Source: Haloterrigena sp. KLK7
GTDB lineage: Archaea > Halobacteriota > Halobacteria > Halobacteriales > Natrialbaceae
Direction: 5' to 3'
NCBI RefSeq assembly: GCF_037914945.1
Contig: NZ_CP149787.1
Location: 496,001 to 560,000, forward strand
DNA: 64,000 bases
The translations under genes were made by a program, and so were the position numbers. Shown here piece by piece: positions 5,615 through 20,135 of the stretch. How positions within the stretch are numbered: the stretch's first letter is position 1; every line of letters begins with the position of its first letter. The notes below the pieces were generated by a model. That model searched no databases, was not told where the DNA came from, and was given only the letters and a program-made list of their open reading frames with translations.

Positions 5615-5742
5615 CGCGGTACGCCGTCGATTTTCGGTTCGAACTCCTGAGGGCACATCTTCGCCCGGTTCCACAGACGGACTCGAGCCGATGGTCTCGC
5701 GTCGGTGAACAACCTCCCTTGAACTACTCCAAGCACAACTGA

Positions 5743-5805
5743 GCAAGCGAACTTGCCCTACACCAAACAAAATTGTTTTAGGGGAGGCTGCTGTTGCCAC
5801 GGGTG
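5743..5805 (+). promoter_or_regulatory. Promoter of the main cbi operon with two inverted repeats
   Basis: Ahead of cbiT lie a perfect hairpin-type inverted repeat GCAAG-CGAA-CTTGC (5743-5756) and, on the probable TATA element, a second inverted repeat AAACAA-AA-TTGTTT (5765-5778) in an A/T-rich block 28-41 nt before the ATG at 5806. A dyad placed over the core promoter is what one expects for a repressor site. No B12 riboswitch-like element is seen, and the transcript is probably nearly leaderless. That the dyads are regulatory is inference. Confidence 0.5.
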
Positions 5806-6420
5806 ATGCCACCCATCGCGCTTCCACACGACGCGAAGGCCGGACCGACGAAGTCGGAGGTCCGGGCGGTCGTCCGCTCGAAACTCGCGCTCGAGTCGGA
5901 CGACCACTTCGCGGAGGTCGGCTCCTGTACGGGGGCCGTCACTATCGAAGCCGCACAGCGGGCCGGGCGAGTGACCGCCGTCGAGCGGAAGGCCGAACGG
6001 CTCGAGACGACCGAGAAGAACCTCGCGGCCAACGAGGAGTCGGTACGGGCCGACGTCGACCTTCGGAACGCGGAGGCGCCCGAGGGGCTGCCCGACGACG
6101 CCGACGCGCTCTTTCTGGGCGGGAGCCGGAACTTCGAGGCCGTCCTCGACCACGCCGTCGAGACCGGCGTCGACCGCATCGTGATGAACGTCTCGCGCCT
6201 CGAGGTCGCCGGCAAGGCGACGGAGGCCTTCCGCGAGCGCGATATCCTCGAGGAGGTCGTCCAGTTCCAGGTGAGCCACGGCTACGAACTCGCCGGCGCG
6301 ACGAGCTTTAACTCGGATAATCCGGTCTACATGCTGGTCGGGAGCGCGACGGCCGACGAGAACAGTGAGAATGAGGGCGAGAAAGTCGCTGCGGACGGAA
6401 GCGGAGGGGACAGCCAATGA
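5806..6420 (+). CDS. cbiT: Cobalt-precorrin-6B C15-methyltransferase / decarboxylase CbiT
   Basis: A 204-residue class I Rossmann methyltransferase. The opening has PHDAKAGPTKSEVRAVV, the CbiT N-terminal signature, then the SAM motif FAEVGSCTGAVTIEAA and the acidic loop VTAVERKAERLETT. CbiT methylates C15 and decarboxylates the C12 acetate in corrin ring synthesis, with CbiE acting at C5. The C-terminus carries an acidic tail beyond the family core. ATG at 5806 is chosen over GTG at 5803 and an upstream TTG because of the promoter spacing. It is the first gene of the long cbi operon; its end overlaps cbiL by 4 bases (ATGA), indicating translational coupling. Confidence 0.9.
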   Translation: MPPIALPHDAKAGPTKSEVRAVVRSKLALESDDHFAEVGSCTGAVTIEAAQRAGRVTAVERKAERLETTEKNLAANEESVRADVDLRNAEAPEGLPDDADALFLGGSRNFEAVLDHAVETGVDRIVMNVSRLEVAGKATEAFRERDILEEVVQFQVSHGYELAGATSFNSDNPVYMLVGSATADENSENEGEKVAADGSGGDSQ

Positions 6421-7241
6421 CCCTCTACGGCGTCGGACTCGGCCCCGGCGAGGCCGACCTCGTGACCGTCCGCGGGAAGGAGGTCCTCGAGGACTGTGAC
6501 GTGGTCTACTCGCCGGGCCGCCTGTCGCGGACCGTCGCGCTCGAGCACGTCGACGAGTCGAAGATCGGCGACCTCGATTTCCCGATGACGAGAGACGAAG
6601 AGAAGCTGCGAGCGGCCTGGAAGGAGGCCGCGGCGGAGATCGCCCCGAACGCGCGCGACGGCGACGTCGCCTTCGTCACGCTGGGCGATCCGAACGTCTA
6701 CTCGACGTTCGGCCACCTGCGCCGGACGATCGACGCCTTCCACCCCGACGTCGAGCTGGAGATCATCCCCGGCGTCAGCGCCGTGACGGCGTTCGCGACC
6801 GCGATGGGGGTCGAGATCGAGGCCGGCGCCGGACTCTCGCTTCGCGAAGCGGCGAGCGGGGCGAGCCCGACGGGGCCGGACCGGATGATCCTGTTCAAGG
6901 TCACCGACGCGCCCGCGACCCACGAGGGACTCGCGGACGCGGGCTACGACGTGACCTACGGCCGCCGCCTGTTCATGGAACAGGGCGAGACGATCGTCAC
7001 CGACGACCCCGAGGCGATCGACGAGCGCGACTACTACACGCTCGCCTACGCCGAGAAGGAATCCCTCGAGGTCGAGCAGGCGACCGCGACGTTCCTCGAG
7101 GACGACGAGAGCGATGGGACCGACGACGTAACCGCGAACGACCGCGATTCGAGCGGCGAGCCCGTTGCCGATGGCGGGAACCGAGTCACACTCGAGCGCG
7201 CCGAGGGCTGTGAGGGCGGCGACTGTGAGGGACACCGATGA
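6417..7241 (+). CDS. cbiL: Cobalt-factor II C20-methyltransferase CbiL
   Basis: A 274-residue tetrapyrrole methylase that adds the C20 methyl group to cobalt-factor II. It starts with the family glycine loop LYGVGLGPGEADLVTVRG and has VTLGDPNVYSTFGHL and IIPGVSAVTAFATAMG, which form the SAM site, and VYSPGRLSRT near the N-terminus. After about residue 230 there is an acidic Ser/Asp-rich extension that ends with a Cys pair (EGCEGGDCEGHR), which is not part of the methylase core. Overlaps cbiT and cbiF by 4 bases each. The Cys-containing tail could bind metal, but this is speculation. Confidence 0.9.
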   Translation: MTLYGVGLGPGEADLVTVRGKEVLEDCDVVYSPGRLSRTVALEHVDESKIGDLDFPMTRDEEKLRAAWKEAAAEIAPNARDGDVAFVTLGDPNVYSTFGHLRRTIDAFHPDVELEIIPGVSAVTAFATAMGVEIEAGAGLSLREAASGASPTGPDRMILFKVTDAPATHEGLADAGYDVTYGRRLFMEQGETIVTDDPEAIDERDYYTLAYAEKESLEVEQATATFLEDDESDGTDDVTANDRDSSGEPVADGGNRVTLERAEGCEGGDCEGHR

Positions 7242-8164
7242 CCGACGACACGCAGAACGATCCACAAGACGCGATCGACTCGCAGGGGGAACGCCGCCGC
7301 GAGGAACTCGACGACCGGATCTTCGAGCACAGCGCCGGCGACGAACAGGAGGGAATCCCCTTCATCGGCGCGGGCCCCGGCAACCCGCGGCTGCTGACCG
7401 TCGCGGGGAAGGAACTGCTCGAGGACGCCGACCTCGTCGTCCACGCGGGCTCGCTTGTCAACAGCGAACTGCTCGAGGAGTACTGCGGCCACGCCGAGTT
7501 GGTCAATTCGGTCGGGAAGGACCTCGAGGAACTGATTCCCCTGATGCGAGACGCCTACGAGGACGGCGACAACGTCGTCCGCCTGCACAGCGGCGATCCG
7601 GCCATCTACGGGGCCGCACTCGAGCAGATGGACGCGCTGGAACACGAAGGGGTCTCGACCTACTTCGTGCCGGGCGTCACGTCGGCCTTCGCGGCCAGCG
7701 CGACGCTGCGGACCCAGTTGACGTTGAACGAGGTCTCCAACCACGTCGCGTTCACCCGACCGCAGGGGAAGACCCTGAGCCCCGAGGAGGACCACATCTC
7801 CGACTTCGTCGAGATGGGCGACGTGACGACCTGCATCTACCTCGGGACCCACGCGGTTCGGGACACGATGGATCGGCTGCTCGAGGACGGCCGGGACCCC
7901 GAGACGCCGGTCGCGGTGATCTACCACGCCTCGTGGCCGGACGAGGACGTGATCATCGGAACGGTCGACGATATCGCCGATAAGGTCGAAGAGGCAGGCT
8001 ATCGGGCCTCTGCGATGGTGGTTATCGGTGATGCGGTGACCGGTGCAGGCTACGAGCGCTCCTTCCTCTACGGCGACTGGGCGAATCGAGGATCGGACTC
8101 GAGCGACGCGAACGACGCGGACGCACAGGCGAACGAAACCGAAACGCAAGCGGGAGACGATTGA
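7238..8164 (+). CDS. cbiF: Cobalt-precorrin-4 C11-methyltransferase CbiF
   Basis: A 308-residue tetrapyrrole methylase with an extended acidic N-terminus of about 38 residues, then the SAM loop PFIGAGPGNPRLLTVAG, VVHAGSLVN, LHSGDPAIYGA and VPGVTSAFAASATL, the classical CbiF/CobM signatures. It methylates C11, the step that allows ring contraction to proceed to the aldehyde-releasing stage by CbiG. Residues from about 290 are an acidic unstructured tail, a haloarchaeal addition. It follows cbiL with a 4-base overlap and precedes cbiG by 2 bases. Confidence 0.92.
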   Translation: MTDDTQNDPQDAIDSQGERRREELDDRIFEHSAGDEQEGIPFIGAGPGNPRLLTVAGKELLEDADLVVHAGSLVNSELLEEYCGHAELVNSVGKDLEELIPLMRDAYEDGDNVVRLHSGDPAIYGAALEQMDALEHEGVSTYFVPGVTSAFAASATLRTQLTLNEVSNHVAFTRPQGKTLSPEEDHISDFVEMGDVTTCIYLGTHAVRDTMDRLLEDGRDPETPVAVIYHASWPDEDVIIGTVDDIADKVEEAGYRASAMVVIGDAVTGAGYERSFLYGDWANRGSDSSDANDADAQANETETQAGDD

Positions 8165-8166
8165 TC

Positions 8167-9162
8167 ATGAGCACGGACAACGTAGACAACGCGAACGAGG
8201 ATTCGGGATCGGACTCCGACGGCGGCCACTGTTCCACGCCGGATTCGGACGGCGAAGTCGCGGAGGAGATCGCGATCATCTCCTTCGGGCGGAAGATGGA
8301 CACCGCCGAGGAGATCAAGGCAGAGATCGGCGATCGCTACGAGGCGATCGACATCATCGAGTACCACGGCGACGTCTTCGAGGAGCACTGGGGCGAGTAC
8401 GACTGCTTCGTCGGCCTGATGGCCTCGGGAATCGCGATGCGGAAGACGGCCCACCTGCTCGACGACAAGTGGGAGGACCCCGCGATCTGCGTGGTCGACG
8501 AGGAACTGACGTGGGCCATCCCGATTACGGGCGGCCACCACGGCGCGAATCAGGTCGCACAGGATCTGGCGACGATGGGTGCCGTCCCGGCGATGACCAC
8601 CGCGAGCGAGGCGGCCGGGAAACAGGGCGTCGAGTCCAAGGCCAAGGCGATGGACGCCCACGTCGTCAACGGCGACTCGACGGTGAAGACGAACCTCGCC
8701 GTTCTCGACGACGAACTCGGACCGGTCGCCCGACTCGAGGGGCCCAAAGCCGTCCTCGTCGGCGACGATGTGACGGTGCTCAAGCGCAACAAGGACGACG
8801 GCGTCGTCCTCGGTACCGGCAGCGTCTCCGGCGCCGACAAGGAGGCCTTCCTCGCCGCATGGGAGGAAGCCCTCGAGCAAACCGACTACGACCTCGAGGA
8901 CGTCGAGTTCGTCGGCACCGCGACCCGGAAGGAAGACGAGGAGGGCCTGCTCGAGGCCGCCCGGGAACTCGATCTCGGCGTCGTCGCCTTCGACAAGGAA
9001 ACGCTGCTCGATCACGAGGGGCCGACGCCCTCGAAATCGAAGGAGCTGATCGGCTGGCCGGGCGTCTCCGAGGCCTCCGCGATCGCGGGCGGTCGTGAAC
9101 GGGAACTGGTCTTAGAGAAGATCAGTTACGAGAACGAGGTCACGGTGGCGATCGGTCGATGA
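8167..9162 (+). CDS. cbiG: Cobalt-precorrin-5A hydrolase CbiG
   Basis: A 331-residue protein that opens the delta-lactone of cobalt-precorrin-5A and releases acetaldehyde. The N-terminal domain has IAIISFGRKMD and LMASGIAMR; the central one has VVDEELTWAIPITGGHHGANQVA, the most diagnostic CbiG segment; the C-terminal domain has VGTATRKEDEEGLLEAA and the ending LIGWPGVSEASAI. The ATG at 8167 is taken as start because an upstream TTG is the only alternative and is weak. It lies between cbiF and cbiH; its stop overlaps the cbiH start by 4 bases. Confidence 0.9.
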   Translation: MSTDNVDNANEDSGSDSDGGHCSTPDSDGEVAEEIAIISFGRKMDTAEEIKAEIGDRYEAIDIIEYHGDVFEEHWGEYDCFVGLMASGIAMRKTAHLLDDKWEDPAICVVDEELTWAIPITGGHHGANQVAQDLATMGAVPAMTTASEAAGKQGVESKAKAMDAHVVNGDSTVKTNLAVLDDELGPVARLEGPKAVLVGDDVTVLKRNKDDGVVLGTGSVSGADKEAFLAAWEEALEQTDYDLEDVEFVGTATRKEDEEGLLEAARELDLGVVAFDKETLLDHEGPTPSKSKELIGWPGVSEASAIAGGRERELVLEKISYENEVTVAIGR

Positions 9163-10034
9163 GCACTGAGGAGTCACCTGCCGGCACCGGCGACGGCACC
9201 CCCGACGACCACGGCACCCTCTACGTCGTCGGTATCGGCCCCGGCCTCCCCGACCACATGACCAAGCGGGCCAAGGAGGTCATCGAGTCCGCGGAGGTCG
9301 TCATCGCCTCGAGTCTCTATCAGGAGTTCCTGCGCGACGACGGCACGATTCCCTCGGAGGAACAGACGGACGAGGACGGGATCGCGACTCGAGACGACGG
9401 CTTCGAACAGGAGATCGTCCGCTCGACGATGGGTCGCCAGATCGAACTCGCCCGCGCGGCGTTCGACTACGTCCGCGAGGGAAAGGACGTCGCCCACGTC
9501 TCCGGCGGCGATCCGTCGGTCTACGGCAAGTCCGACCTCATCTTCAAGATGGCCGAGGAAGAGGACGCCACGGACGTCCCGATCGAGATCGTGCCCGGCA
9601 TGACGGCGGCGCTGGGCGGCGCGGCCAACGTCGGCGCGCCGTTGTGCAACGACTTCTGTACGGTCTCGCTGTCGGACAAGTGGCGCGGCTGGGACGAGAT
9701 CGAGGAGAAACTGCGCGCCGCGGCGATTTCGGACTTCGTGATCGTCCTCTACAACTGCTGGCGCAACTACGAGAAGGCGGTCGAGATCGTCCGCGAGGAA
9801 CGCACCGACGACGCCCGCGTGGCCATCGTCAACGACGCCGGCCGCGCCGACGCCGGCCGGAACGGCGAGAGCCAGTTCATCACGACGCTGGGCGAGGCCG
9901 CCGACCACGACGACAAGGTCTCCGGCATGGGCACCTCGCTGATCATCGGCAACCACGAGACCGAGACCTGGCGCAACGACGACCGAACGTACCTCGTCAC
10001 CCCGCGCGGCGGGCGTGACGTCGACGACTTCTGA
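9159..10034 (+). CDS. CbiH-like cobalt-precorrin C17-methyltransferase, divergent copy 1
   Basis: A 291-residue tetrapyrrole methylase with SAM loop VVGIGPGLPDHMTKRA, VSGGDPSVYGK and VPGMTAALGGAANVGAPLC, then the CbiH-like ending TYLVTPRGGRD. CbiH methylates C17 and contracts the ring. This copy departs from the classic sequence where the usual YNPRSKKR is replaced by YNCWRNYEKA, and it has a Cys pair in APLCNDFC. A closer-to-canonical CbiH lies just downstream, so the two may split C17 and another methylation (for example C1), which is inference. The gene is in the cbi operon and overlaps cbiG by 4 bases. Confidence 0.82.
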   Translation: MSTEESPAGTGDGTPDDHGTLYVVGIGPGLPDHMTKRAKEVIESAEVVIASSLYQEFLRDDGTIPSEEQTDEDGIATRDDGFEQEIVRSTMGRQIELARAAFDYVREGKDVAHVSGGDPSVYGKSDLIFKMAEEEDATDVPIEIVPGMTAALGGAANVGAPLCNDFCTVSLSDKWRGWDEIEEKLRAAAISDFVIVLYNCWRNYEKAVEIVREERTDDARVAIVNDAGRADAGRNGESQFITTLGEAADHDDKVSGMGTSLIIGNHETETWRNDDRTYLVTPRGGRDVDDF

Positions 10035-10049
10035 AATCAGGATCCGACC

Positions 10050-11141
10050 ATGAGCACTGACACCGACTCCGACGCCGACGGCGAATCGACTTCGAAGTGC
10101 GGCGCATCGACCGACACTGACACCGAGACTTCGAGTACCTCCAAATGCGGAGCCTCGAGCAGCAGTACCGAATCCGAGACCGAGAGCGCCGACTCGGGTT
10201 CCAAATGCGGTGCTTCGAGCAGCAGCGACGACTCGAGTAGCTCCAAGTGCGGCGGCTCCTCGAGTTCGTCCTCGTCCTCGAGCGGCTCGAAATGCGGGGC
10301 CTCGAGCTCCGACGACTCGGGCAGCAACGAGAAGGAGGTCGGCGCGACGATCGAGGACTTCGACGCCGAGCCCGGCCAACTGATCGCCGTCGGCCTCGGT
10401 CCCGGCCACCCGGAGGGGATGACCGAGCGCGCGAAGACGGCGCTGCTCGAGGCCGACCACATCGTCGGCTACACGACCTACATCGAACTGATCCCGGACG
10501 AGATCACCGAGCAGGCCGACGAGATCTACGACACGCCGATGTGCGGCGAAGTCTCCCGTACCGAGGAGTCGATCGATCGCGCGCTGGCGGGCAACGACGT
10601 CGCCATCGTCGGCAGCGGCGACCCCAACGTCTACGCGCTGGCGGGACTGGCGCTCGAGATCCTCGAGTCGAAGGGCGCGACGGCCTCGATGGTCGACTTC
10701 GAGGTCGTACCGGGCGTCCCCGCGGCGCAGTCCTGTGCGGCCCGCCTCGGTGCCCCCCTCGTGAACGACACCGTCTCGGTCTCGCTGTCTGACCACCTCG
10801 TGCCGATGCCCGAGATCGAGTCCCGACTGCACTCGGTGGCCAGCGAGAACTTCACGATCACGATCTACAACCCGTGGAGCCGCAAGCGCCGCGAGAACTT
10901 CGAGAAGGCCTGCGAGATCCTCCTCACGCATCGGGACCCCGACACGCCGGTCGGGATCGTCCACGGCGCCGGCCGCGAGGACGAGCAGGTGATGATCACC
11001 GAACTCGGCGAACTCGAGGAACTCGGCGAGAGCGAGATCATCGACATGACGACGACCATCGTCGTCGGCACCGAGGACACCTACGTCTGGGACGACCGGA
11101 TGGTCACGCCTCGAGGCTACGAGACGAAGTACGACTACTGA
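10050..11141 (+). CDS. cbiH: CbiH (precorrin-3B/cobalt-factor III C17-methyltransferase) with Cys-repeat N-terminal extension
   Basis: A 363-residue protein. From about residue 108 it is a canonical CbiH: LIAVGLGPGHPEGM, IVGYTTYIELI, VGSGDPNVYAL, VVPGVPAAQSCAARLGAPL, YNPWSRKRRENFE and VTPRGYETK. The first 95 residues are a Ser/Thr/Asp-rich, probably disordered extension holding five repeats of SKCG[AG]S, with Cys at 17, 33, 53, 67 and 82 and a Lys before each. These Cys are not part of any known methylase function; metal (cobalt) binding or redox tethering is inference. Intergenic gap of 15 bases to the upstream copy. ATG at 10050 gives the full extension, with internal starts lacking. Confidence 0.88.
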   Translation: MSTDTDSDADGESTSKCGASTDTDTETSSTSKCGASSSSTESETESADSGSKCGASSSSDDSSSSKCGGSSSSSSSSSGSKCGASSSDDSGSNEKEVGATIEDFDAEPGQLIAVGLGPGHPEGMTERAKTALLEADHIVGYTTYIELIPDEITEQADEIYDTPMCGEVSRTEESIDRALAGNDVAIVGSGDPNVYALAGLALEILESKGATASMVDFEVVPGVPAAQSCAARLGAPLVNDTVSVSLSDHLVPMPEIESRLHSVASENFTITIYNPWSRKRRENFEKACEILLTHRDPDTPVGIVHGAGREDEQVMITELGELEELGESEIIDMTTTIVVGTEDTYVWDDRMVTPRGYETKYDY

Positions 11142-11167: not shown

Positions 11168-11434
11168 ATGCCACGATACGAAGTCACCATCGAGAAGGAC
11201 GCCTGCGACGGCATCTTCGCCTGTCTGACCCGCGACCCCCGGTTCGTCGAGGGTGAGGACGGCCTCGCGACCGTCGACCCGGACGCGGACCCGGTCTACG
11301 ACTGCGAGGGCGCGGTCACCGACGACGCCGAGCGGGTCGTCGCGACGTTCGACGACGACCGCATCGACGAGGCCCAGCAGGCCGCGGCGGCCTGCCCGAC
11401 GGACGCGATCGTCGTCGAGGAGGTGGGCGAATGA
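11168..11434 (+). CDS. Small single-cluster ferredoxin
   Basis: An 88-residue ferredoxin-like protein. The start region KDACDGIFACLT has Cys13 and Cys19, with Cys46 in YDCEGA and Cys76 in the classic AACPTDAI, so it probably carries one 4Fe-4S or 3Fe-4S cluster rather than two. It sits inside the cbi operon just after cbiH and overlaps the next gene by 4 bases, suggesting it donates electrons to a corrin-forming step, for example the ring-contraction or reductase step. This partner assignment is inference; the iron-sulfur fold is well supported by the cysteine pattern. Confidence 0.82.
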   Translation: MPRYEVTIEKDACDGIFACLTRDPRFVEGEDGLATVDPDADPVYDCEGAVTDDAERVVATFDDDRIDEAQQAAAACPTDAIVVEEVGE

Positions 11435-12147
11435 GCGAGACCGAACCGAAAGCCGACGGCGAGACCGACGCGGATCCGCTCGAGATTACCGTCCCGTCGG
11501 ACCCGCTCGCGGGCCATCCCGCGACGGCCTACTTCTGGGGCCACGTCGCCGGCAGCGGCGACGTCTCTGATGACGGCATCGAAGTCGTCACCAACGACGA
11601 GGAATCCGCACAGGTGCTGGCCGCGGTCGGCGGCGGCGACCTCGAGCACGAGACGACGACTCGCGACTACGCCCACGACACGTCGATCACGCGGACGGAG
11701 GACGAGTACACGCTGTCGATCGACAGCGACGACTCGGGCCTGCTCGGCCGCAGCGGCGCGCTCGGCCTCCCCGTCGACGGCCGCGGTAACTACCGGTTCG
11801 GGGCGTTCTCCGAATACGATCGGGAGCTGCTGCGGGGGCTGCTCGAGGGCTGTGGCACGATCTGCTTCAAGTCGAAGAGCGGCACCGTCGGCATCTCGTT
11901 CGTCCACGACGACGAAGAACTGCTCGAACTCGCGCAGGACCTGATCGCTGACTGTCCCGTAGACGCACCGTTCGACGATCTCTCAGAGACCTCGTCGGGC
12001 GGCTACTGGTTCGGCGTCGACGACGACGCCGCGCCCGACTTCGGCACGTGGCTCTACGAGGACTGCGAGGCGACCGGTCTGTTCGCGCCGAGCCGGCGGC
12101 GCAAACTCGAGCGCAGCCTCGAGCAAGCCACGGCGTACGACGAGTAA
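11431..12147 (+). CDS. Cobalamin-operon protein with degenerate double LAGLIDADG-like fold
   Basis: A 238-residue protein within the cbi operon. It has two segments built like LAGLIDADG homing-endonuclease helices followed by beta strands: AYFWGHVAGSGD at 33-44 followed by IEVVTNDEESAQVLAAVGG, and ELLRGLLEGCGTI at 132-144 followed by VGISFVHDDEELLELAQDL. The end WLYEDC ... SRRRKLERSLE also resembles the close of such domains. In both halves the usual catalytic acid is missing (Ser42, Cys141), so cleavage is unlikely. Position between ferredoxin and CbiX implies a role in B12 synthesis or its regulation. I know of no assigned function; the fold assignment is from pattern only. Confidence 0.6.
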   Translation: MSETEPKADGETDADPLEITVPSDPLAGHPATAYFWGHVAGSGDVSDDGIEVVTNDEESAQVLAAVGGGDLEHETTTRDYAHDTSITRTEDEYTLSIDSDDSGLLGRSGALGLPVDGRGNYRFGAFSEYDRELLRGLLEGCGTICFKSKSGTVGISFVHDDEELLELAQDLIADCPVDAPFDDLSETSSGGYWFGVDDDAAPDFGTWLYEDCEATGLFAPSRRRKLERSLEQATAYDE

Positions 12148-12178: not shown

Positions 12179-13414
12179 ATGAGCACACCCGACGAAGCCA
12201 GATCCACGGCGTCACCGACCGCGTTCGACGACGAGGCGGTCCTGCTGGTTGGCCACGGCTCCCGCCGCGAGAAGTCCAACGAACAGGTGCGGGAACTGGC
12301 CGCCGGCCTCGAGTCCCGACTCGGCATCCCGGTCGACGCCGCGTTCCTCGAACTCGCGGAGCCGGCGATCGACGAGGCGTTCGCGGGGCTCGCGCCGGTC
12401 GCCTCGCGGGTGACGGTCGTCCACTGCTCGCTGTTCGCCGCGAGCCACGTCAAGAACGACGTGCCGCTGGCGATCGAGCAGGCCCGCGCCGAACACGACC
12501 TCGAGATCGACAACGGCGCCCACCTGGGTATCCATCCCGCGATCCTGGACCTACTCGACGACCGCGCCGCCGCGGTCGAGTCGAAATTGGGCGTCGACCG
12601 CGAGGAAGACGACGTGGCCGTGGTCCTCTGTGGCCGCGGCTCGAGCGATCCGGACGCCAACGGCGACGTCCACAAGCTGGCCCGCCTGCTCTACGAGGGT
12701 CGGGCGTTCGACCGCGTCGAGGCGACCTTCATCGGCGTCACCGAGCCGACGCTCGAGGACACCCTCCACGGGCTCTCGAAGCACCGGCCCGACGCCGTGG
12801 TCGTCCTGCCGTACATGCTCGGTGATGGCGTGTTGACCCAGCGGATCCGCGACTGGACGGCCGACTTCGACGACGACTACCCCTACGTCGACGCGCTGGC
12901 GGGCGATCCGCTGGGGACCGACTCCCGGCTGCTGGACGTCTTCGCCGACCGCTGGCAGGAGGCCCGGACCGAGAGCGTCGAGATGTCCTGTGACACGTGC
13001 AAGTACAAGGTCGACCTCGAGGGCTACGAGGAGGACGTCGGCGGCGCGCGGGCCATGCTGCGCGCGCTGGCCCACCAGGAGGCCCACGCGGACCGGGAGG
13101 ACGTCGACGACGAACCGCACAGCCACGACGCGCCCGAAAAGCACGTCGCGGTCTGTATGAACCAGACCTGCGCCGAGATGGGGTCGCCGGCGGTCCTCGA
13201 GCGCCTCCGACAGGCGGTGCGAGATTCGGACCACTGCGACGCCCGAATCACGCGCTCCTCGTGTCTCGGACGCTGCGGCGACGGGCCGATGGTCGCCGTC
13301 TATCCGGACGGAATCTGGTACGGCGACGTCGCGAGCGAGGACGCCGAACGGATCGTCGGCGACCACCTCGATCGGGACCGTATCGTCAGCGACCTCGTCG
13401 ATCAGACGCTGTAA
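12179..13414 (+). CDS. cbiX: Sirohydrochlorin cobaltochelatase CbiX, long form with 2Fe-2S domain
   Basis: A 411-residue chelatase that inserts cobalt into sirohydrochlorin, the committing step of the cobalt-early route. The N-terminal half has LLVGHGSRREKSNEQV and FLELAEPAIDEA (first CbiX repeat) and the second repeat has VVLCGRGSSDPDANGDV and VVLPYMLGDGVLTQRI. A middle CxxC (Cys271, Cys274, SCDTCKYK) is followed by a His/Asp-rich linker and a C-terminal thioredoxin-like ferredoxin domain with Cys326, Cys331, Cys362 and Cys366 (CMNQTC ... SCLGRC), a typical 2Fe-2S binding set. The gene is downstream of the LAGLIDADG-like gene and ahead of DUF3209. Confidence 0.92.
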   Translation: MSTPDEARSTASPTAFDDEAVLLVGHGSRREKSNEQVRELAAGLESRLGIPVDAAFLELAEPAIDEAFAGLAPVASRVTVVHCSLFAASHVKNDVPLAIEQARAEHDLEIDNGAHLGIHPAILDLLDDRAAAVESKLGVDREEDDVAVVLCGRGSSDPDANGDVHKLARLLYEGRAFDRVEATFIGVTEPTLEDTLHGLSKHRPDAVVVLPYMLGDGVLTQRIRDWTADFDDDYPYVDALAGDPLGTDSRLLDVFADRWQEARTESVEMSCDTCKYKVDLEGYEEDVGGARAMLRALAHQEAHADREDVDDEPHSHDAPEKHVAVCMNQTCAEMGSPAVLERLRQAVRDSDHCDARITRSSCLGRCGDGPMVAVYPDGIWYGDVASEDAERIVGDHLDRDRIVSDLVDQTL

Positions 13415-13481: not shown

Positions 13482-13853
13482 ATGAGCTGCCACGAAATCG
13501 AAGCGCTACGACTCGGACTGATGAACGTCCTCGGCGTCGGGGACGACAGTGCCCGCGAACACGCGGAGAAGGAACTCGAGGGCCACCTCGAGGGGCCCAT
13601 CGAGGGGCTCGCGAACGCCGAGAGCCTCGCGGAGGTCGAACGCCACCTCGACGCGGCCCTCGTCGACCTGGAGGAAGAGGTCGCCGCGATGGACGGCGAC
13701 GACCCCGAGTACGACTACACCCGGGGTCGACTGCTGGCGGTCCGCGACGCCGAGCGCGCGGTCCAGCGGCTGCGCACGCAAGGCGAGGACATCGTCGACG
13801 GCCTCGGCGAGGCTCACGACACCCTCCACGAGACCTTCCCGGTAGAGGACTGA
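13482..13853 (+). CDS. DUF3209 family protein in the cobalamin cluster
   Basis: A 123-residue, mostly helical acidic protein starting MSCHEIEALRLGLMNVLG, which is the DUF3209 signature. The family is found beside corrin-synthesis genes in haloarchaea, so a link to cobalamin is established by context, but no activity is known. The Cys3-His4 pair at the extreme N-terminus is reminiscent of a metal ligand. It follows cbiX by 67 bases and is 2 bases before the beta-propeller gene, so all three are probably co-transcribed. Confidence 0.75.
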   Translation: MSCHEIEALRLGLMNVLGVGDDSAREHAEKELEGHLEGPIEGLANAESLAEVERHLDAALVDLEEEVAAMDGDDPEYDYTRGRLLAVRDAERAVQRLRTQGEDIVDGLGEAHDTLHETFPVED

Positions 13854-13855
13854 CG

Positions 13856-15163
13856 ATGGCCGAAACTGCAGACGTCGAACGCGGCGACGACCGGGACGGC
13901 GACCGCGAGGTCCGATCGGTCCCGCTCGGCGAAATCGAGACGGCCCGAAGCCGTCACATGTGGACCCGTTCCGCGGTGCACGTCGCCGAAGCCGGAGCTC
14001 TCGTCGTCACCGGCGAGTGGGACGGGACCGTCACCGCCCGCGAGACCGATTCGGACTCGCTCGAGGCCCGCTGGACGGTCGACCATCCGGACCACGCGAT
14101 CGGAATCGCGTCGCTCTCGAGCGATGGAGCCGAGGACGACAGCGAGGAGTCGATCGTCGTCGCCGGCCGCGGCGAGACGGGCACCATCGCGGCCTACGAC
14201 GCCGCGACCGGCGAGCGGCGCTGGCGGTACGATACCGTCGACGACCTCGGTGAGGCCGTCAACGACACCGTCTTCTACCTCCCGTACGTGGTCGACCTCG
14301 AGGTCGACAGCGACGACGGAACCCTCTACGCGGCCGCGCGACGGTACGAGCGCGACGGCGACGTTCGGCAGTGGCACAGCACCGTCTACGCGTTCGCTCC
14401 CGACGGGGCGGTGCGCTGGCGCTACGAGACCGACGGCTCGCCGATCGCGCTCGATCTCGACGCCGACGGCGAGCGACTGGCGGTCGGCTACAACCGCTGT
14501 ATGGGCGACCACGACGTCGGACTCGTCGTGCTCGAGACTGAGACGGGCGACCTCGCGTGGACCTGGGACCCCGGCACCGAGGGCGACCGCCGCGTCGGCG
14601 ACGTCTCGTTCGACGGCGATTCGATCGCGGTCTCGAGCCACGGCGACAAGCGCGGCTACCTGCTCGGTCCCCGCGGCGCCGAACGCTGGCGCGTCGATCT
14701 GGCGGTCGAAACCGAGATCGACGGCGAGACGCTGTACGCCTATCCGAACCACGCGTACGCGAACGACGGCCGCGTGACGTTCGTGACCGGCAACACCTAC
14801 GCCGTCGAGAGCCGCGAGACCGAGGGACGGCATCCGAACGAGCACCGAATCGCGACGTTCGAGGCCGACGGCGAGTTGGCGTGGGACGACCAGGTCCGGG
14901 GCTTCGTCCACGCCCTCGCCGCCGACGGCGAGACGATCGCCGCGCCCTGCGCGCAGAACTTCCGCGTTCGCGACCCCGAGACGCACGCCGTACGACGATT
15001 CGACCTCGAGTCGGGACCGCTGGGTGTCGAACGCCTCTCGGGCATCGCGACCGCCGCCGCCGTCGCCGACGGGACGCTGGCGGCGATCGAAGAGCCCGTC
15101 GAGTACCACGACGAGGGCGAGACCCGCGGCGAGTACGCCCTGCACGTGGCTTCGATCGAGTAG
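13856..15163 (+). CDS. PQQ-like beta-propeller protein of the cobalamin operon
   Basis: A 435-residue protein with several beta-propeller blades: WDGTVTARETDS, IAAYDAATGERRWRYDT, YAFAPDGAVRWRYETDGSP, VVLETETGDLAWTWDP and GYLLGPRGAERWRVDL. These are the tryptophan-containing repeats of PQQ/BamB-type propellers. There is no signal peptide or lipobox, so it acts in the cytoplasm, unlike BamB. It directly follows DUF3209 at the end of the cbi operon, which suggests a cytosolic role in corrin synthesis, such as scaffold or ligand-binding. Function is unknown; WD40-type repeats are a less likely reading. Confidence 0.75.
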   Translation: MAETADVERGDDRDGDREVRSVPLGEIETARSRHMWTRSAVHVAEAGALVVTGEWDGTVTARETDSDSLEARWTVDHPDHAIGIASLSSDGAEDDSEESIVVAGRGETGTIAAYDAATGERRWRYDTVDDLGEAVNDTVFYLPYVVDLEVDSDDGTLYAAARRYERDGDVRQWHSTVYAFAPDGAVRWRYETDGSPIALDLDADGERLAVGYNRCMGDHDVGLVVLETETGDLAWTWDPGTEGDRRVGDVSFDGDSIAVSSHGDKRGYLLGPRGAERWRVDLAVETEIDGETLYAYPNHAYANDGRVTFVTGNTYAVESRETEGRHPNEHRIATFEADGELAWDDQVRGFVHALAADGETIAAPCAQNFRVRDPETHAVRRFDLESGPLGVERLSGIATAAAVADGTLAAIEEPVEYHDEGETRGEYALHVASIE

Positions 15164-15305: not shown

Positions 15306-17168
15306 ATGACAACGGGTCTAGAAGATGATGGTTCCGAGGAGTGTTCGGATCCCATGGAGGTCGCAGAGCACTCGAGCCATCGTCACGACGGTGAGCACGC
15401 GGAGCGAGCGGACCGCAGGATTATGACCGATGGCGGCCAGGCAGAGATGGCTGAGGAGAGTGACGACGAGGACTCGAGTGGTGATGCCGACGAAGCGTCG
15501 GCAGACGACACGGAAGGTGCTGACGCTGAGGAAGAGGAAGCAGAGGACGAAGAGGCTGAGGAAGAGGAGGAAGCAGAGGACGAAGAAGCTGAGGAAGAGG
15601 AAGCCGAGGACGAGGAAGCTGAGGAAGAGGAAGCCGAGGACGAGGAAGTGGAAGAGGAGGAAGCAGAGGACGAAGAAGCTGAGGACGAAGAGGCTGAGGA
15701 AGAGGAAGCGGAAGAGGAGGAAGCAGAGGACGAAGAGGCTGAGGAAGAGGAGGAAGCTGAGGAAGAGGAAGCAGAGGACGAAGAAGCTGAGGAAGAGGAA
15801 GCAGAGGACGAAGAAGCTGAGGAAGAGGAAGCCGAGGACGAAGAAGCTGAGGAAGAGGAAGCAGAGGACGAAGAAGCTGAGGAAGAGGAAGCAGAGGACG
15901 AAGAAGCTGAGGAAGAGGAAGCCGAGGACGAAGAAGCTGAGGAAGAGGAAGCAGAGGACGAAGAAGCTGAGGAAGAGGAAGCAGAGGACGAAGAAGCTGA
16001 GGAAGAGGAAGCAGAGGACGAAGAAGCTGAGGAAGAGGAAGCCGAGGACGAAGAAGCTGAGGAAGAGGAACAGGACGTTGGAGACGATACCGGTGACCTC
16101 ACCGAGGACAAGCGTGAGGAAGGACACGCCGAGGACGCCGAAAAGGTCTACGAGGGCGACGACGCTTCCGGCGTCCTCCACCTCGACCTCGACGGTCTCT
16201 TCCTCGATCTGCTCGGCCTCGAGGTCAACCTGAACCCGCTCCAGCTCGACGTGTCGGCCCGTCCGGGCGGAAACAACCTGCTCGGGAACCTGCTGTCAGC
16301 GGTGACCGGACTGCTGGACGGCCCCGGTGCGATGATCGACAAGGCGAAAGAACTCCTGAGCAAGCCGGTCGAGCTTCTCAAGAAAGTCCCCGGCAAGGCG
16401 AAAGAGCTCCTGAGCAAGCCGATCGAGCTTCTCAAGAAGATCCCCGGCAAGGCGAAAGAGCTCCTGAGCAAGCCGATCGAGCTTCTCAAGAAGATCCCCG
16501 GCAAGGCGAAAGAGGTACTCAGCGGATTGTTGAGCAAGCCGAAGGAACTGTTCAACAAGCTGCTGGGGATGCTGGGACTCGGCGGCGAGGAAGAAGCCGA
16601 AGGCGAGGAGGCCGAAGGCGAGGAGGAGGCCGAAGCCGAAGAGGGAGAAGAAGCGGAAGAAGCGGAGTCCGGTGGCCGGATCTCCTCGGCCATCAGCTGG
16701 GTGAAAGGCATTCTCGGCAAGCCGGTCGAGTGGATCCGCGGGCTCTTCGGCGGCGGAGACGAGGAAGAAGCGCCGGACGAGGAAGAAGCGGCCGAAGCCG
16801 AAGAAGAGGAAGCGCCGGACGAAGCGGAGGAGGGAGAAGAAGGCGAAGAGACACCGGACGAAGCGGAGGAGGGAGAAGAAGAAGGCGAAGAGACGCCGGA
16901 CGAAGCGGAGGAGGGAGAAGAAGAAGGCGAAGAGACGCCGGACGAAGCGGAGGAGGACGAGGAAGCGACCGAATCGCCGGGGCCGATCTCCGCCGCCAGC
17001 GACCGGGCAAAGGAGGGGCTCGCCGGGCTCGTCCCGAGCTTGCCGGTCGAGGAGTTCGTCTCGACGGTCGTCAGCGAGGTGCTCGAGCAGTTAATTGAGC
17101 AACTCGAACCCGACGAGGAGCAAGAAGGGGGCGGTGACCAATCCGACGCCACAGCGGAGGCAGCCTAA
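15306..17168 (+). CDS. Hyperacidic repeat protein with basic amphipathic-helix repeats
   Basis: A 620-residue protein. Residues about 75-255 are almost pure Glu/Asp/Ala, in 10-residue units AEDEEAEEEE. There follow LHLDLDGLFLDLLGLEVNLN (hydrophobic), then three 18-residue repeats starting KAKELLSKP at 346-399, with the pattern KAKELLSKPIELLKKIPG and net positive charge, then a fourth degenerate copy. RISSAISWVKGILGKPVEW and a Pro/Glu repeat TPDEAEEGEEEGEE follow, and a C-terminal helix SLPVEEFVSTVVSEVLEQL. No enzyme motif is visible. It is the first of four linked genes. It may form assemblies or bind membranes; this is inference. ATG at 15306 is preferred, but Met40 (15423) is possible. Confidence 0.8.
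   Translation: MTTGLEDDGSEECSDPMEVAEHSSHRHDGEHAERADRRIMTDGGQAEMAEESDDEDSSGDADEASADDTEGADAEEEEAEDEEAEEEEEAEDEEAEEEEAEDEEAEEEEAEDEEVEEEEAEDEEAEDEEAEEEEAEEEEAEDEEAEEEEEAEEEEAEDEEAEEEEAEDEEAEEEEAEDEEAEEEEAEDEEAEEEEAEDEEAEEEEAEDEEAEEEEAEDEEAEEEEAEDEEAEEEEAEDEEAEEEEAEDEEAEEEEQDVGDDTGDLTEDKREEGHAEDAEKVYEGDDASGVLHLDLDGLFLDLLGLEVNLNPLQLDVSARPGGNNLLGNLLSAVTGLLDGPGAMIDKAKELLSKPVELLKKVPGKAKELLSKPIELLKKIPGKAKELLSKPIELLKKIPGKAKEVLSGLLSKPKELFNKLLGMLGLGGEEEAEGEEAEGEEEAEAEEGEEAEEAESGGRISSAISWVKGILGKPVEWIRGLFGGGDEEEAPDEEEAAEAEEEEAPDEAEEGEEGEETPDEAEEGEEEGEETPDEAEEGEEEGEETPDEAEEDEEATESPGPISAASDRAKEGLAGLVPSLPVEEFVSTVVSEVLEQLIEQLEPDEEQEGGGDQSDATAEAA
15781..16070 (+). repeat. Ten tandem 30-bp units inside an acidic coding region
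   Basis: The unit is AAGAAGCTGAGGAAGAGGAA plus GCAGAGGACG (30 bases) and encodes the AEDEEAEEEE unit in frame. Ten consecutive copies lie at 15781-16070, nearly identical apart from an A/C change in one position (GCA or GCC) and a changed end of the last copy. Imperfect copies extend left to about 15535. The plus strand is almost all purine and uses GAA and GCT codons that are uncommon elsewhere in this genome. Such a tract can vary in length by slippage. Confidence 0.9.
16341..16502 (+). repeat. Three tandem 54-bp units coding for a basic amphipathic helix
   Basis: Units at 16341-16394, 16395-16448 and 16449-16502. Units 2 and 3 are identical base for base; unit 1 differs by a few changes. 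Each encodes KAKELLSKP[VI]ELLKK[VI]PG. The perfect identity implies recent duplication or gene conversion. Confidence 0.88.
16842..16955 (+). repeat. Tandem 42-bp units coding for a Pro/Glu-rich repeat
   Basis: Two complete units and a partial third of GGCGAAGAGACGCCGGACGA followed by AGCGGAGGAGGGAGAAGAAGAA (16842, 16884, 16926), near-identical, encoding GEETPDEAEEGEEE. A degenerate copy precedes them. Confidence 0.75.
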
Positions 17169-17170
17169 CG

Positions 17171-17773
17171 ATGAGTGGAGAATCCGAATCCGAGTCCGAG
17201 TCAATGGCACAGCGAATCGACTACGGGAAGATCACCGAGAACATCGACGTCAACGAGCTGATCGAGGGCACCCAGTGGGAAGACGAGATCGACGAGGACC
17301 AGCCCCTCGGCGAGGCGCTGGGCGCCCAGATCGGCGCGCTCATCGGCCGGAAGATCGGCGAATCCATCGGCCGAACGATCGGTGATATGGTCGTCGAGGA
17401 ACTACTCGGCGGCAAAGAAGAGTCCGAAGAGCAAGCGACCGAAGAAGAGGCCGAGGCCGAAGAGTCCGAAGAGGAAGAGGCCGAGGACGAAGAGTCCGAA
17501 GAGGAAGAGGCCGAGGACGAAGAGGCTCAGGAAGAAGAAGGCGAGGCCGAAGAGTCCGAAGAGGAAGAGGAGGAGTCCGAGTCCGAATCGGAGGACGAAG
17601 AGCAGTCGGAGGAACCGACGGACGACGAGTCGGAGGCGTCCGACGATGAGGACGCCGACGATAGCCAGGCCGACGAGGGCGAGGCGGACGAAGCCGAGAC
17701 CGACGATGAGAGTAGCGACGAGTCCGACTCCGAAGCCGAGGAGGAGGACGCCGTCGAAGCGGAGGAGGACTAG
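17171..17773 (+). CDS. Acidic protein with a strict glycine-zipper helix
   Basis: A 200-residue protein. After a short start (Met12 at 17204 is an alternative start) it has NIDVNELIEGTQWEDEIDED and then a helix in which Gly47, 51, 55, 59, 63, 67 and 71 are spaced exactly four apart, each preceded by Leu or Ile (GEALGAQIGALIGRKIGESI). This glycine zipper makes one flat packing face and would promote tight helix-helix association. From residue 81 on, the protein is a disordered Glu/Asp/Ser tail. The next gene but one has a similar zipper. It begins 2 bases after the preceding stop, so the two are co-translated. Function unknown. Confidence 0.78.
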   Translation: MSGESESESESMAQRIDYGKITENIDVNELIEGTQWEDEIDEDQPLGEALGAQIGALIGRKIGESIGRTIGDMVVEELLGGKEESEEQATEEEAEAEESEEEEAEDEESEEEEAEDEEAQEEEGEAEESEEEEEESESESEDEEQSEEPTDDESEASDDEDADDSQADEGEADEAETDDESSDESDSEAEEEDAVEAEED

Positions 17774-17775
17774 CC

Positions 17776-17841
17776 ATGAGCGGGAGTCAGATTCACGGCA
17801 GCCGATCGCCGATCCCGTCTCGAGGTGAGCGCCATGGCTGA
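17776..17841 (+). CDS. Possible 21-residue basic peptide ORF between two acidic genes
   Basis: ATG two bases after the previous stop, then MSGSQIHGSRSPIPSRGERH and Gly, ending in TGA that overlaps the ATG of the next gene (17834). It is basic and Ser/Pro-rich, unlike its acidic neighbours. It could be a real tiny gene, a translational coupling device, or chance. Confidence is low because there is no homology evidence. Confidence 0.25.
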   Translation: MSGSQIHGSRSPIPSRGERHG

Positions 17842-18859
17842 GAGCGGACTGCGGAAGCTGGTCGCCCAGGAGGTGAGCGACCAACTTGACGTGGCCGACA
17901 TGCTCGGCGACGGCAGCATCGAGGACAGCATCGACGGCGGCGAGGTCGGCGCGGCGGTCGGTCGCGAACTCGGCGAACAGGTCGGTCGCGAACTCGGCGG
18001 AGCGATCGGTCGCGGCATCCACGAATCGATCGCCGAAGGCCTCGAGGAGGGCAAGGACCGCAAGGAGATGCAGTCGACCCTCACGGCGGCGATTCGCGAC
18101 GCGCTCCGGGAGACGGTCGAAGAAAACGACGCGAAGGAGTCGGTCCAGTCGCTGGCCCAGGGCGTCTCCGAAGGCGGCGGTCTCGAGGGCTTACTCGAGA
18201 GCGATACCGACGACAGCGAGGCTGAGAGCGACGAGGGCGAGGAAGCCGACAGCGAGGGCGGCGGCACGCAAGAGACCATCGAGTCGGTCGTCGAGAGCAT
18301 CGGCGAGGAGAGCGGCCTCGGAGACGTTCTCGAGGGCGAGAGCGAAGAATCGGCGGGCGAATCCGAGTCGGACGAAGAGGGCGACGAAGGCGGAGGAGAA
18401 GACGAAACCGAATCGGAGGACGAAGACGCCGAGGAGGAACCGGAAGACGAGGCCGAATCGGAAGACGAGGCCGAATCGGAGCCGGACGCTGAAAGCGACG
18501 AAGCGGCGGAGGCGGAGGACGAATCCGAAGCGGACTCCGAAGACGAGACCGAGGAGGCGGAGGACGAATCCGAAGCGGACTCCGAAGACGAGACTGAGGA
18601 GTCGGAGGACGAATCCGAGGCGGAATCGACCGACGACTCCGAGCCGTCGGTCGAGGATATCGAGGACCTGCGCCGGGACACCCTCGAGGACTTCCTCGGC
18701 ATCATGTCCTACGACGACCTGCAGTCGGTCGCCAAGGACGTCGACGTGAAGGCGAACCTCAGCCGCGACGAGATGACCGAGCAGATCATCGCGGCGGTGA
18801 CCGACGAGGGCGAAGACGAAGACGGGGCCGACGACGAACCGGAAGCCGAAGCCGAATAA
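17834..18859 (+). CDS. Acidic protein with glycine zipper and SAP/Rho-N-like C-terminus
   Basis: A 341-residue protein starting MAESGLRKLVAQEVSDQLDV. Residues 20-62 repeat the design of the preceding gene product: DVADMLGDGSIEDSIDGG, then Gly39, 43, 47, 51, 55 and 59 at four-residue spacing (GAAVGRELGEQVGRELGGAI). A helical segment GGGTQETIESVVESIGEESG follows, related to repeats in the next gene. After a long Glu/Asp/Ser region, the C-terminal part reads RRDTLEDFLGIMSYDDLQSV and AKDVDVKANLSRDEMTEQII, resembling the Rho-N/SAP nucleic-acid-binding helix pair. ATG at 17834 is preferred to the GTG at 17825. Function unknown. Confidence 0.78.
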   Translation: MAESGLRKLVAQEVSDQLDVADMLGDGSIEDSIDGGEVGAAVGRELGEQVGRELGGAIGRGIHESIAEGLEEGKDRKEMQSTLTAAIRDALRETVEENDAKESVQSLAQGVSEGGGLEGLLESDTDDSEAESDEGEEADSEGGGTQETIESVVESIGEESGLGDVLEGESEESAGESESDEEGDEGGGEDETESEDEDAEEEPEDEAESEDEAESEPDAESDEAAEAEDESEADSEDETEEAEDESEADSEDETEESEDESEAESTDDSEPSVEDIEDLRRDTLEDFLGIMSYDDLQSVAKDVDVKANLSRDEMTEQIIAAVTDEGEDEDGADDEPEAEAE

Positions 18860-18944
18860 TCGCCGGCCGCCCTCGAGCGAGAGTCCGGACGGAAGCGAAC
18901 GGCGGACGGCGAACCGCGGTCGCGGCGCGGACAGCGAGGGAACC

Positions 18945-20135
18945 ATGAGTCAGGACAGTCAGGACCTCCACGACCGGGTGACCGAGATACTGAACGCGGC
19001 CGAGGACTCGAGCGGATCGATGCTCGGGGACGGGGACGGCGACTCCGACGGCGCGGCCCTCCTCGAGACCGCCGCGGCGGCCAGCGACCTCCTCGAGTCC
19101 GCGGAGCCGGACGAACTGCTCGCGGCGGTCGGACTGGACACGCTGCCGGACGGCAGCGAGCCGGACTCGATCCCGGAAGCGATCGCTCGGGGCGATCCGG
19201 AGCAAGTCGCGGACCTCCAGCGGCTGTTGCACCTCTCGAACCTGGCCGATGACGACGACGAGAGGGCGCTCGAGGGAGCCGTCGACGCACTCCAGTCGTC
19301 GATCGGCGACGGCGAGGAAGCGACGGCCGAATCGGACGCCAGCGACGAGAGTGAGTCGGACGGCGAGGAGCAGAGCGACGCGGCGGCCGCAAGCGACGAC
19401 GCGGCCGAGGACGATGAGACCGAAGACGACGGACTGCTCGAGTCCGTGATCGGCTCGAGCGACGAGGACGGCGAGAGCGACGCCGAAGCGGAGGCCGGCG
19501 ACACCGGATCCGATGAGGACGACGCCGATGCCGACGGCGAGGGCGGCGCTCGAGAGATGGTCGAGACGGCCGCCGAGACGGTCGGCGAGGCTAGCGGACT
19601 CCTCGAGGGCGATGAGAGCAGCGACGACGGCGGTACCGAGGCAACGGCTAGCGACACCGAATCGGACGGCGATGCCGACGACGCCGACGACGCCGACGAC
19701 GAGGGCGGCGCGCGAGAGGCGGTCGAAGCGGCCGCCGAAACGGTCGGCGAAGCCAGCGGGATTCTCGAGGGCGACGACGGAGCGGACGGAGACGCCGAGG
19801 ATGACGCCGGCTCCGATATCGGCGACCGGCTCCGATCGGCGGTCGAGTCCTCGCTGACGGACGTCGGCGACGATCTGGAGGGACTCCACGAGCGACTGCA
19901 GGAACGGAGCGCCAGTTCCGTCGGTGGCGAGGGCGAAGACGAGGCGGCCGCCGACGAGGCCGAAGGCGAAGAAGAGGAGGACGACGGACCGCTCGGCACC
20001 GACCTCGGTTCGGGCGACGAGGGAAGCAACGCCGGCGGCGACGGCACGCGCCACTCGACGATGGCACCGCCTCCCTCGCAGCGCGCGGACATGGGCCGAT
20101 CGACGCGTCACTCGACGATGCCCAAGCGGCACTGA
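18945..20135 (+). CDS. Acidic helical-repeat protein with basic TRHSTM tail
   Basis: A 396-residue acidic protein. The N-terminal quarter is helical (HDRVTEILNAAED, LLESAEPDELLAAVGLDTL, ADLQRLLHLSNLADDDDER). The middle has two copies of GGAREMVETAAETVGEASGL / GGAREAVEAAAETVGEASGI, each followed by LEGD, and matching a segment of the preceding protein. The last 30 residues are different: Pro-rich and basic, with TRHSTM occurring twice (DNA 20046-20063 and 20103-20120) and ending MPKRH. A basic tail on an otherwise acidic protein suggests a docking or nucleic-acid contact; this is inference. It follows the preceding gene by 85 bases and has no recognised family. Confidence 0.75.
   Translation: MSQDSQDLHDRVTEILNAAEDSSGSMLGDGDGDSDGAALLETAAAASDLLESAEPDELLAAVGLDTLPDGSEPDSIPEAIARGDPEQVADLQRLLHLSNLADDDDERALEGAVDALQSSIGDGEEATAESDASDESESDGEEQSDAAAASDDAAEDDETEDDGLLESVIGSSDEDGESDAEAEAGDTGSDEDDADADGEGGAREMVETAAETVGEASGLLEGDESSDDGGTEATASDTESDGDADDADDADDEGGAREAVEAAAETVGEASGILEGDDGADGDAEDDAGSDIGDRLRSAVESSLTDVGDDLEGLHERLQERSASSVGGEGEDEAAADEAEGEEEEDDGPLGTDLGSGDEGSNAGGDGTRHSTMAPPPSQRADMGRSTRHSTMPKRH

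Follow-up and report, generated by a model that had tools for sequence, protein, structure and literature searches.

A nuclease-dead LAGLIDADG-fold protein fixed in the cobalamin operon of haloarchaea, and its possible role as an accessory of cobalt insertion

The cobalamin (B12) operon of Haloterrigena sp. KLK7 encodes a nuclease-dead LAGLIDADG-fold protein of 238 amino acids, hereafter LAG (11431..12147, plus strand; positions refer to the window, the whole stretch of 64,000 nucleotides that was analyzed, unless another locus or contig is named). Its fold, its catalytic loss, its single copy in the genome, the fixed place of its gene, purifying selection and co-occurrence with the cobalamin cluster are observations of which we are nearly certain. 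The explanation that we prefer for the whole, to which we give somewhat less than an even chance, is that a LAGLIDADG fold was captured, is nuclease-dead and has been kept in the B12 cluster as an accessory of cobalt insertion by CbiX.

The LAG reading frame starts with the ATG at 11431 and stops with the TAA at 12145–12147; its frame and coordinates were verified, and the two motifs quoted in the preliminary description of this DNA lie indeed at residues 33–44 and 132–144. The start codon overlaps the stop codon of the gene for a single-cluster 4Fe-4S ferredoxin (ATGA; Fer4_15, 11168..11434, plus strand, E 2.3e-14), and 31 bases separate the LAG stop from cbiX. Upstream in the same operon and on the same strand, cbiT, cbiL, cbiF, cbiG, cbiH1 and cbiH2 extend over 5794..11141, as identified by profile matches and by the order reported in PMC8305020. 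Downstream, also on the plus strand, follow cbiX1 (12179..13414), a cobaltochelatase with a C-terminal 2Fe-2S thioredoxin-like domain and no His-rich tail (CbiX E 4.3e-45, 2Fe-2S_thioredx E 2.3e-7), a DUF3209 gene (13482..13853, E 5.2e-53) and a gene for a PQQ/BamB-like beta-propeller protein (13856..15163, profile match). This order, cbiT-L-F-G-H1-H2-fd-LAG-cbiX-DUF3209-PQQ, is that of HVO_B0062 to HVO_B0052 in Haloferax volcanii (PMC8305020), with the ferredoxin, DUF3209 and propeller genes at the positions of HVO_B0056, HVO_B0053 and HVO_B0052. Within this 11-gene order LAG stands at the position of HVO_B0055, to which it is orthologous by synteny. Four of these Haloferax genes, HVO_B0052, B0053, B0055 and B0056, are cluster members without an assigned function and are candidates for two gaps of the pathway (PMC8305020). 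A LAGLIDADG relation of HVO_B0055 is not reported in the text of that paper, the gene is mentioned in a single paper of the literature searched, and our search found no paper linking LAGLIDADG with cobalamin biosynthesis. RefSeq names LAG-type proteins 'cobalamin biosynthesis protein'. Right after the cobalamin cluster, at 15306–20135, the window encodes very acidic repeat-rich proteins with EEEEAEDEEA and similar units.

A resemblance of the two halves of LAG to LAGLIDADG proteins had been proposed, to be abandoned if a predicted structure lacked the two saddle-like units. Both units are present in the AlphaFold2 model (pLDDT 81, pTM 0.80), which consists of two alpha-beta-beta-alpha-beta halves. 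Its top match among PDB structures is WhiA (Z 15.3, rmsd 3.2, 182 aligned), and Z is about 14 with PI-PfuI and I-DmoI. The same fold was obtained when a distant relative with the first catalytic Asp retained was modelled (pTM 0.80, Z 14.7). By sequence, Pfam LAGLIDADG_3 gives a sub-threshold match to LAG alone (E 0.091, residues 128–172) and matches 12 of 24 diverse members of the family (best E 2.7e-5). Aligned by hhalign with haloarchaeal LAGLIDADG domains, the family profile is colinear over 189 columns (E 1.2e-6), spanning both halves and the C-terminus; single-sequence matches are weaker. Searches of PDB sequences with the LAG protein or profiles yielded no relevant match, and a search of NCBIfam no match for LAG. 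LAG belongs to the LAGLIDADG superfamily by its two saddle-forming units as well as by sequence, and its assignment as a single-chain LAGLIDADG protein is firm.

The first LAGLIDADG-type helix and turn comprise residues 30–45 (11518..11565, plus strand), with Ser42 at the catalytic position according to alignment, AlphaFold2 model and tree. The second helix runs into a strand at residues 131–147 (11821..11871, plus strand), and here alignment and model place Cys141 at the catalytic position. LAG therefore lacks the catalytic Asp or Glu that ends both motifs of an active LAGLIDADG homing endonuclease. Among 90 LAG homologs, position 42 is Ser in 65, Asp in 18, Asn in 4, Gly in 2 and Ala in 1; position 141 is Cys in 87 and Ser, Ala or Thr in one each, and is never acidic. 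The loss of both acids, as first described, holds for LAG and for the Natrialbaceae but not for the whole family, since the first Asp is kept (GRVxGDG) in many lineages outside the Natrialbaceae; in the tree, the Ser state is grouped in the Natrialbaceae and one distant row. The second loss is family-wide and the first is limited to part of the family. None of the 90 homologs has both acids together, from which we infer that the loss of nuclease activity probably preceded the spread of the LAG family. Residues invariant in all 90 include His82, Glu139, Cys145, Gly154, Ser156, Phe194, Tyr209, Arg222 and Lys225.

A degenerate LAGLIDADG domain is common to LAG and WhiA. Like LAG, the N-terminal domain of WhiA (DUF199), its best structural match, is single-chain, has lost its metal-binding acids and is domesticated by the host. 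A further likeness lies in the partnership of WhiA with the Fe-S protein WhiB (PMC4850268), given that the LAG gene overlaps that of a 4Fe-4S ferredoxin. LAG differs from WhiA in that it is haloarchaeal, fixed in a cobalamin operon, poor in Lys and Arg, provided with Cys at the second catalytic position and devoid of a helix-turn-helix (HTH) domain; the C-terminal helix of its second half ends at residue 238, and no HTH family was found. I-DmoI, PI-PfuI and the haloarchaeal intein-type domains share with LAG the two-helix saddle fold and detectable sequence homology, but they have an acid in both motifs and reside in introns or inteins, whereas the LAG family never has both acids and resides in an operon.

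Between relatives the dN/dS of LAG is 0.10–0.21, reaching 0.31 for the most distant of the compared pairs, and the gene is therefore under purifying selection. The protein contains 22% Asp plus Glu and 6.3% Lys plus Arg, a composition resembling that of the metabolic enzymes of the cbi operon. The family mean for Lys plus Arg is 8.5%, versus 11–14% in haloarchaeal LAGLIDADG domains, and LAG itself has about half of the latter.

Of the 242 haloarchaeal genomes sampled, 127 have a cbi cluster and 123, all of them among the 127, have LAG. DUF3209 occurs in the same 123 genomes and in genome G052, and cbiH2 exceeds the cut-off in 127, namely the 124 with DUF3209 and genomes G001, G007 and G129. 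When the phylum was searched with the family profile, every full match came from Halobacteriales, and the sole near-threshold match was part of a 1218-aa frame. The order ferredoxin-LAG-cbiX is kept in nearly all loci; LAG lies directly 5′ of cbiX in all cluster-borne cases and in all but one locus overall. LAG is thus fixed in the cbi operon, and the context of a mobile element, be it intron, intein or free-standing invader, was not found. The proposal that a homing-endonuclease fold has been domesticated inside a B12 operon is supported by the fold, the fixed synteny and the low dN/dS. In a Leptospira plasmid record, DUF3209 directly follows cbiX, in bacteria that have CbiD; this gene order suggests a partnership of CbiX and DUF3209.

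Several clusters depart from the common arrangement. G052 has lost LAG and kept all its neighbours. The clusters of G001, G007 and G129 are without ferredoxin, LAG, the Fe-S domain of CbiX, DUF3209 and the propeller gene. These loci (L103, L104, L105 and L119) belong to small genomes and represent a third form of the pathway; neither CbiD nor CbiJ was found in the genomes searched. In G014 the ferredoxin gene is missing from the interval between cbiH2 and LAG, and at locus L037 LAG and ferredoxin are present beside a CbiX without the Fe-S domain. In G021 the cluster is split over contigs with LAG apart; the stray LAG (L070, 5445–8454) lies between two Cation_efflux genes and adjoins a rhodanese gene, all on one strand with gaps of tens of bases.

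The clusters without LAG point to cobalt insertion. Five were found in three lineages (G052; G129; and G001, G007 and G541 of one genus), and in all five CbiX has a His-rich tail with 12–16 His per 40 residues. One of the five, a further species of that genus, came from a search of one more family (26 genomes) for such clusters, and its CbiX is His-rich as well. In about 84 of 85 loci with LAG, CbiX has 4–6 His per 40 residues, the exception being L037, where LAG occurs with a His-rich CbiX. In G052 a second copy of cbiX with a His-rich tail stands exactly at the place of LAG (L102, about 7164–8200). For CbiX-L, storage and delivery of metal have been proposed as the function of its His-rich tail (PMC7689651). 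For the function of LAG, our guess is guided by this tail and by CobW, for both of which a supply of cobalt to a B12 chelatase has been proposed or shown (PMC7689651). Neither has a sequence or fold relation to LAG. CobW uses thiol ligands and supplies cobalt for late insertion, and the LAGLIDADG centre of active enzymes is a divalent-metal site.

We suggest the following course of events. An ancestral haloarchaeon would have captured a LAGLIDADG homing-endonuclease fold, probably in a single event; the second catalytic Asp would have become Cys before the family spread, with loss of nuclease activity, and from then on LAG would have been kept in the de novo cobalamin cluster and inherited vertically with it. 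No longer acting on DNA, LAG may assist CbiX in cobalt insertion without being an enzyme itself, and would hold or hand over Co(II), perhaps via the invariant Cys145, Glu139 and His82 and the nearly invariant Cys141. Its task would be the one proposed for the His-rich tail in other CbiX enzymes, or else LAG would be a partner subunit of CbiX and ferredoxin. The cobalt-holding or CbiX-partner role is proposed because of the place of LAG before cbiX, the correlation with the His-rich tail and the context of the stray gene in G021, and also because of the conserved Cys, Glu and His residues and the metal-site nature of the active LAGLIDADG centre. Judged from context and conserved residues, a role in handling cobalt is tentative. 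That the fold has left nucleic acids altogether, to serve as a predicted cobalt-delivery or chelatase partner whose metal-site Asp has become Cys, is slightly more doubtful still. A Co(II) site built on the first Asp was also considered and was dropped, as position 42 varies among Ser, Asp, Asn, Gly and Ala.

Several observations count against the cobalt role. The correlation with the His-rich tail was noticed post hoc and covers three lineages, and L037 breaks it. The Leptospira cluster has CbiX and DUF3209 with no comparable His tail and no LAG in the annotated region. The stray LAG carries less weight in that G021 is one genome on a long branch. Moreover, all LAGLIDADG proteins of known function act, to our knowledge, on nucleic acids.

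Alternatively, LAG could be a transcription regulator or co-regulator whose saddle binds the cbi promoter in the manner of WhiA and which perhaps senses cobalt, corrinoid or the redox state of the ferredoxin. We regard this as unlikely. Its nearest structural match is a transcription factor, it is encoded inside the operon, and in one case it disappeared while all its neighbours stayed, as can happen to regulators. The preliminary description had named such control as one of two options, with DNA binding to be sought at 5743–5805, and operator-like sequences do exist there: a pattern search located three CAA-N6-TTG boxes before cbiT, at 5710–5721, 5744–5755 and 5764–5775. At least one such box within about 100 nt of cbiT is conserved in 51 of 51 loci with LAG, and likewise in 4 of 4 loci without it (2% of shuffles). 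Whatever binds the boxes therefore does not need LAG, and control of the promoter by LAG was rejected as the main explanation. In addition, LAG is strongly acidic with few Lys and Arg, and the specific DNA binding of WhiA uses its added HTH, the LAGLIDADG domain having an altered DNA surface and depending on the HTH (PMC3781837), whereas no such family was found in LAG.

Genome-wide, the operator was scanned for by pattern search. Nowhere else in the genome do two exact boxes stand in tandem as they do before cbiT. Allowing one mismatch gave 5 forward matches versus 4 in the control, so that firm evidence is limited to the exact site at the cbi promoter. Among the one-mismatch matches, whose number is close to that of the control, are one in the chlID/cobN intergenic region and one upstream of a ribonucleotide reductase gene, a possible B12 regulon. 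A TATA-like TTTTA lies about 27 nt before the cbiT ATG, and the transcript may be leaderless.

Another protein is available for the promoter. A MarR-like winged-HTH gene with DUF7839 is divergent to cbiT in several other families (loci L037, L071, L074, L077–L079, L081–L083, L085, L087 and L088). Haloterrigena sp. KLK7 has a single homolog, elsewhere in its genome (G000:C1:182759-183505), and homologs are present in all genomes tested, including all four LAG-less genomes. They also occur in genomes without the cluster, so the protein may have a wider role. This winged-HTH/DUF7839 protein is a candidate regulator of the cbi operon. Direct control of the operon by LAG is unlikely, while weak DNA binding or co-regulation may occur.

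A structural or redox scaffold, in which LAG would be the partner of the ferredoxin and of the Fe-S domain of CbiX with no hand-over of metal, is an improbable explanation as well. It would account for the ATGA overlap with the ferredoxin gene and for the joint absence of LAG, ferredoxin, the CbiX Fe-S domain and DUF3209 from G001, G007 and G129. The parts nevertheless come apart elsewhere: G014 has LAG with no ferredoxin between cbiH2 and LAG, G052 has ferredoxin and no LAG, and at L037 LAG coexists with a CbiX without the Fe-S domain.

LAG might instead be an enzyme, or a subunit of one, that fills the gap left by CbiD (EC 2.1.1.195) or CbiJ (EC 1.3.1.106). CbiD (PF01888) is absent from all 242 haloarchaeal genomes, and CbiJ (PF02571) has no match above its cut-off, so the gaps in the pathway are real. 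HVO_B0055 is one of the four candidate genes named in PMC8305020, and the co-occurrence of LAG with the cluster is near-perfect. Against this, G001, G007, G129 and G052 own a cbi cluster with neither CbiD, CbiJ nor LAG, and LAG is therefore probably not the missing enzyme, unless yet another replacement exists in those genomes. LAG gave no match to the CbiD and CbiJ family profiles, and no family or fold that binds SAM or NADPH was found in it. No methyltransferase or reductase is known to have the LAGLIDADG fold. We thus consider a filling of the CbiD/CbiJ gap quite improbable; as to the preliminary suggestion of a role in corrin synthesis, our data speak for a function close to cobalt insertion rather than for the missing CbiD/CbiJ steps.

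That LAG is a still-active or recently decayed homing endonuclease with no host function is barely credible: the fold itself and the first Asp kept in 18 of 90 homologs would agree with it, but the absence of any member with both acids, the dN/dS of 0.10–0.21 and the same operon position across the class, with no intein or intron context, speak against it.

Few domesticated LAGLIDADG proteins are known to us (WhiA, HO, maturases), and all of them work on nucleic acids. LAG is a domesticated LAGLIDADG protein without an HTH that has become fixed within a cofactor pathway across the B12-making haloarchaea. Our analysis provides a fold and a testable hypothesis, that of an accessory of cobalt insertion by CbiX, for one of the four genes in the haloarchaeal cobalamin cluster that lack an assigned function. 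By arguing that LAG does not fill the CbiD/CbiJ gap, it also narrows the search for the genes responsible for those steps.
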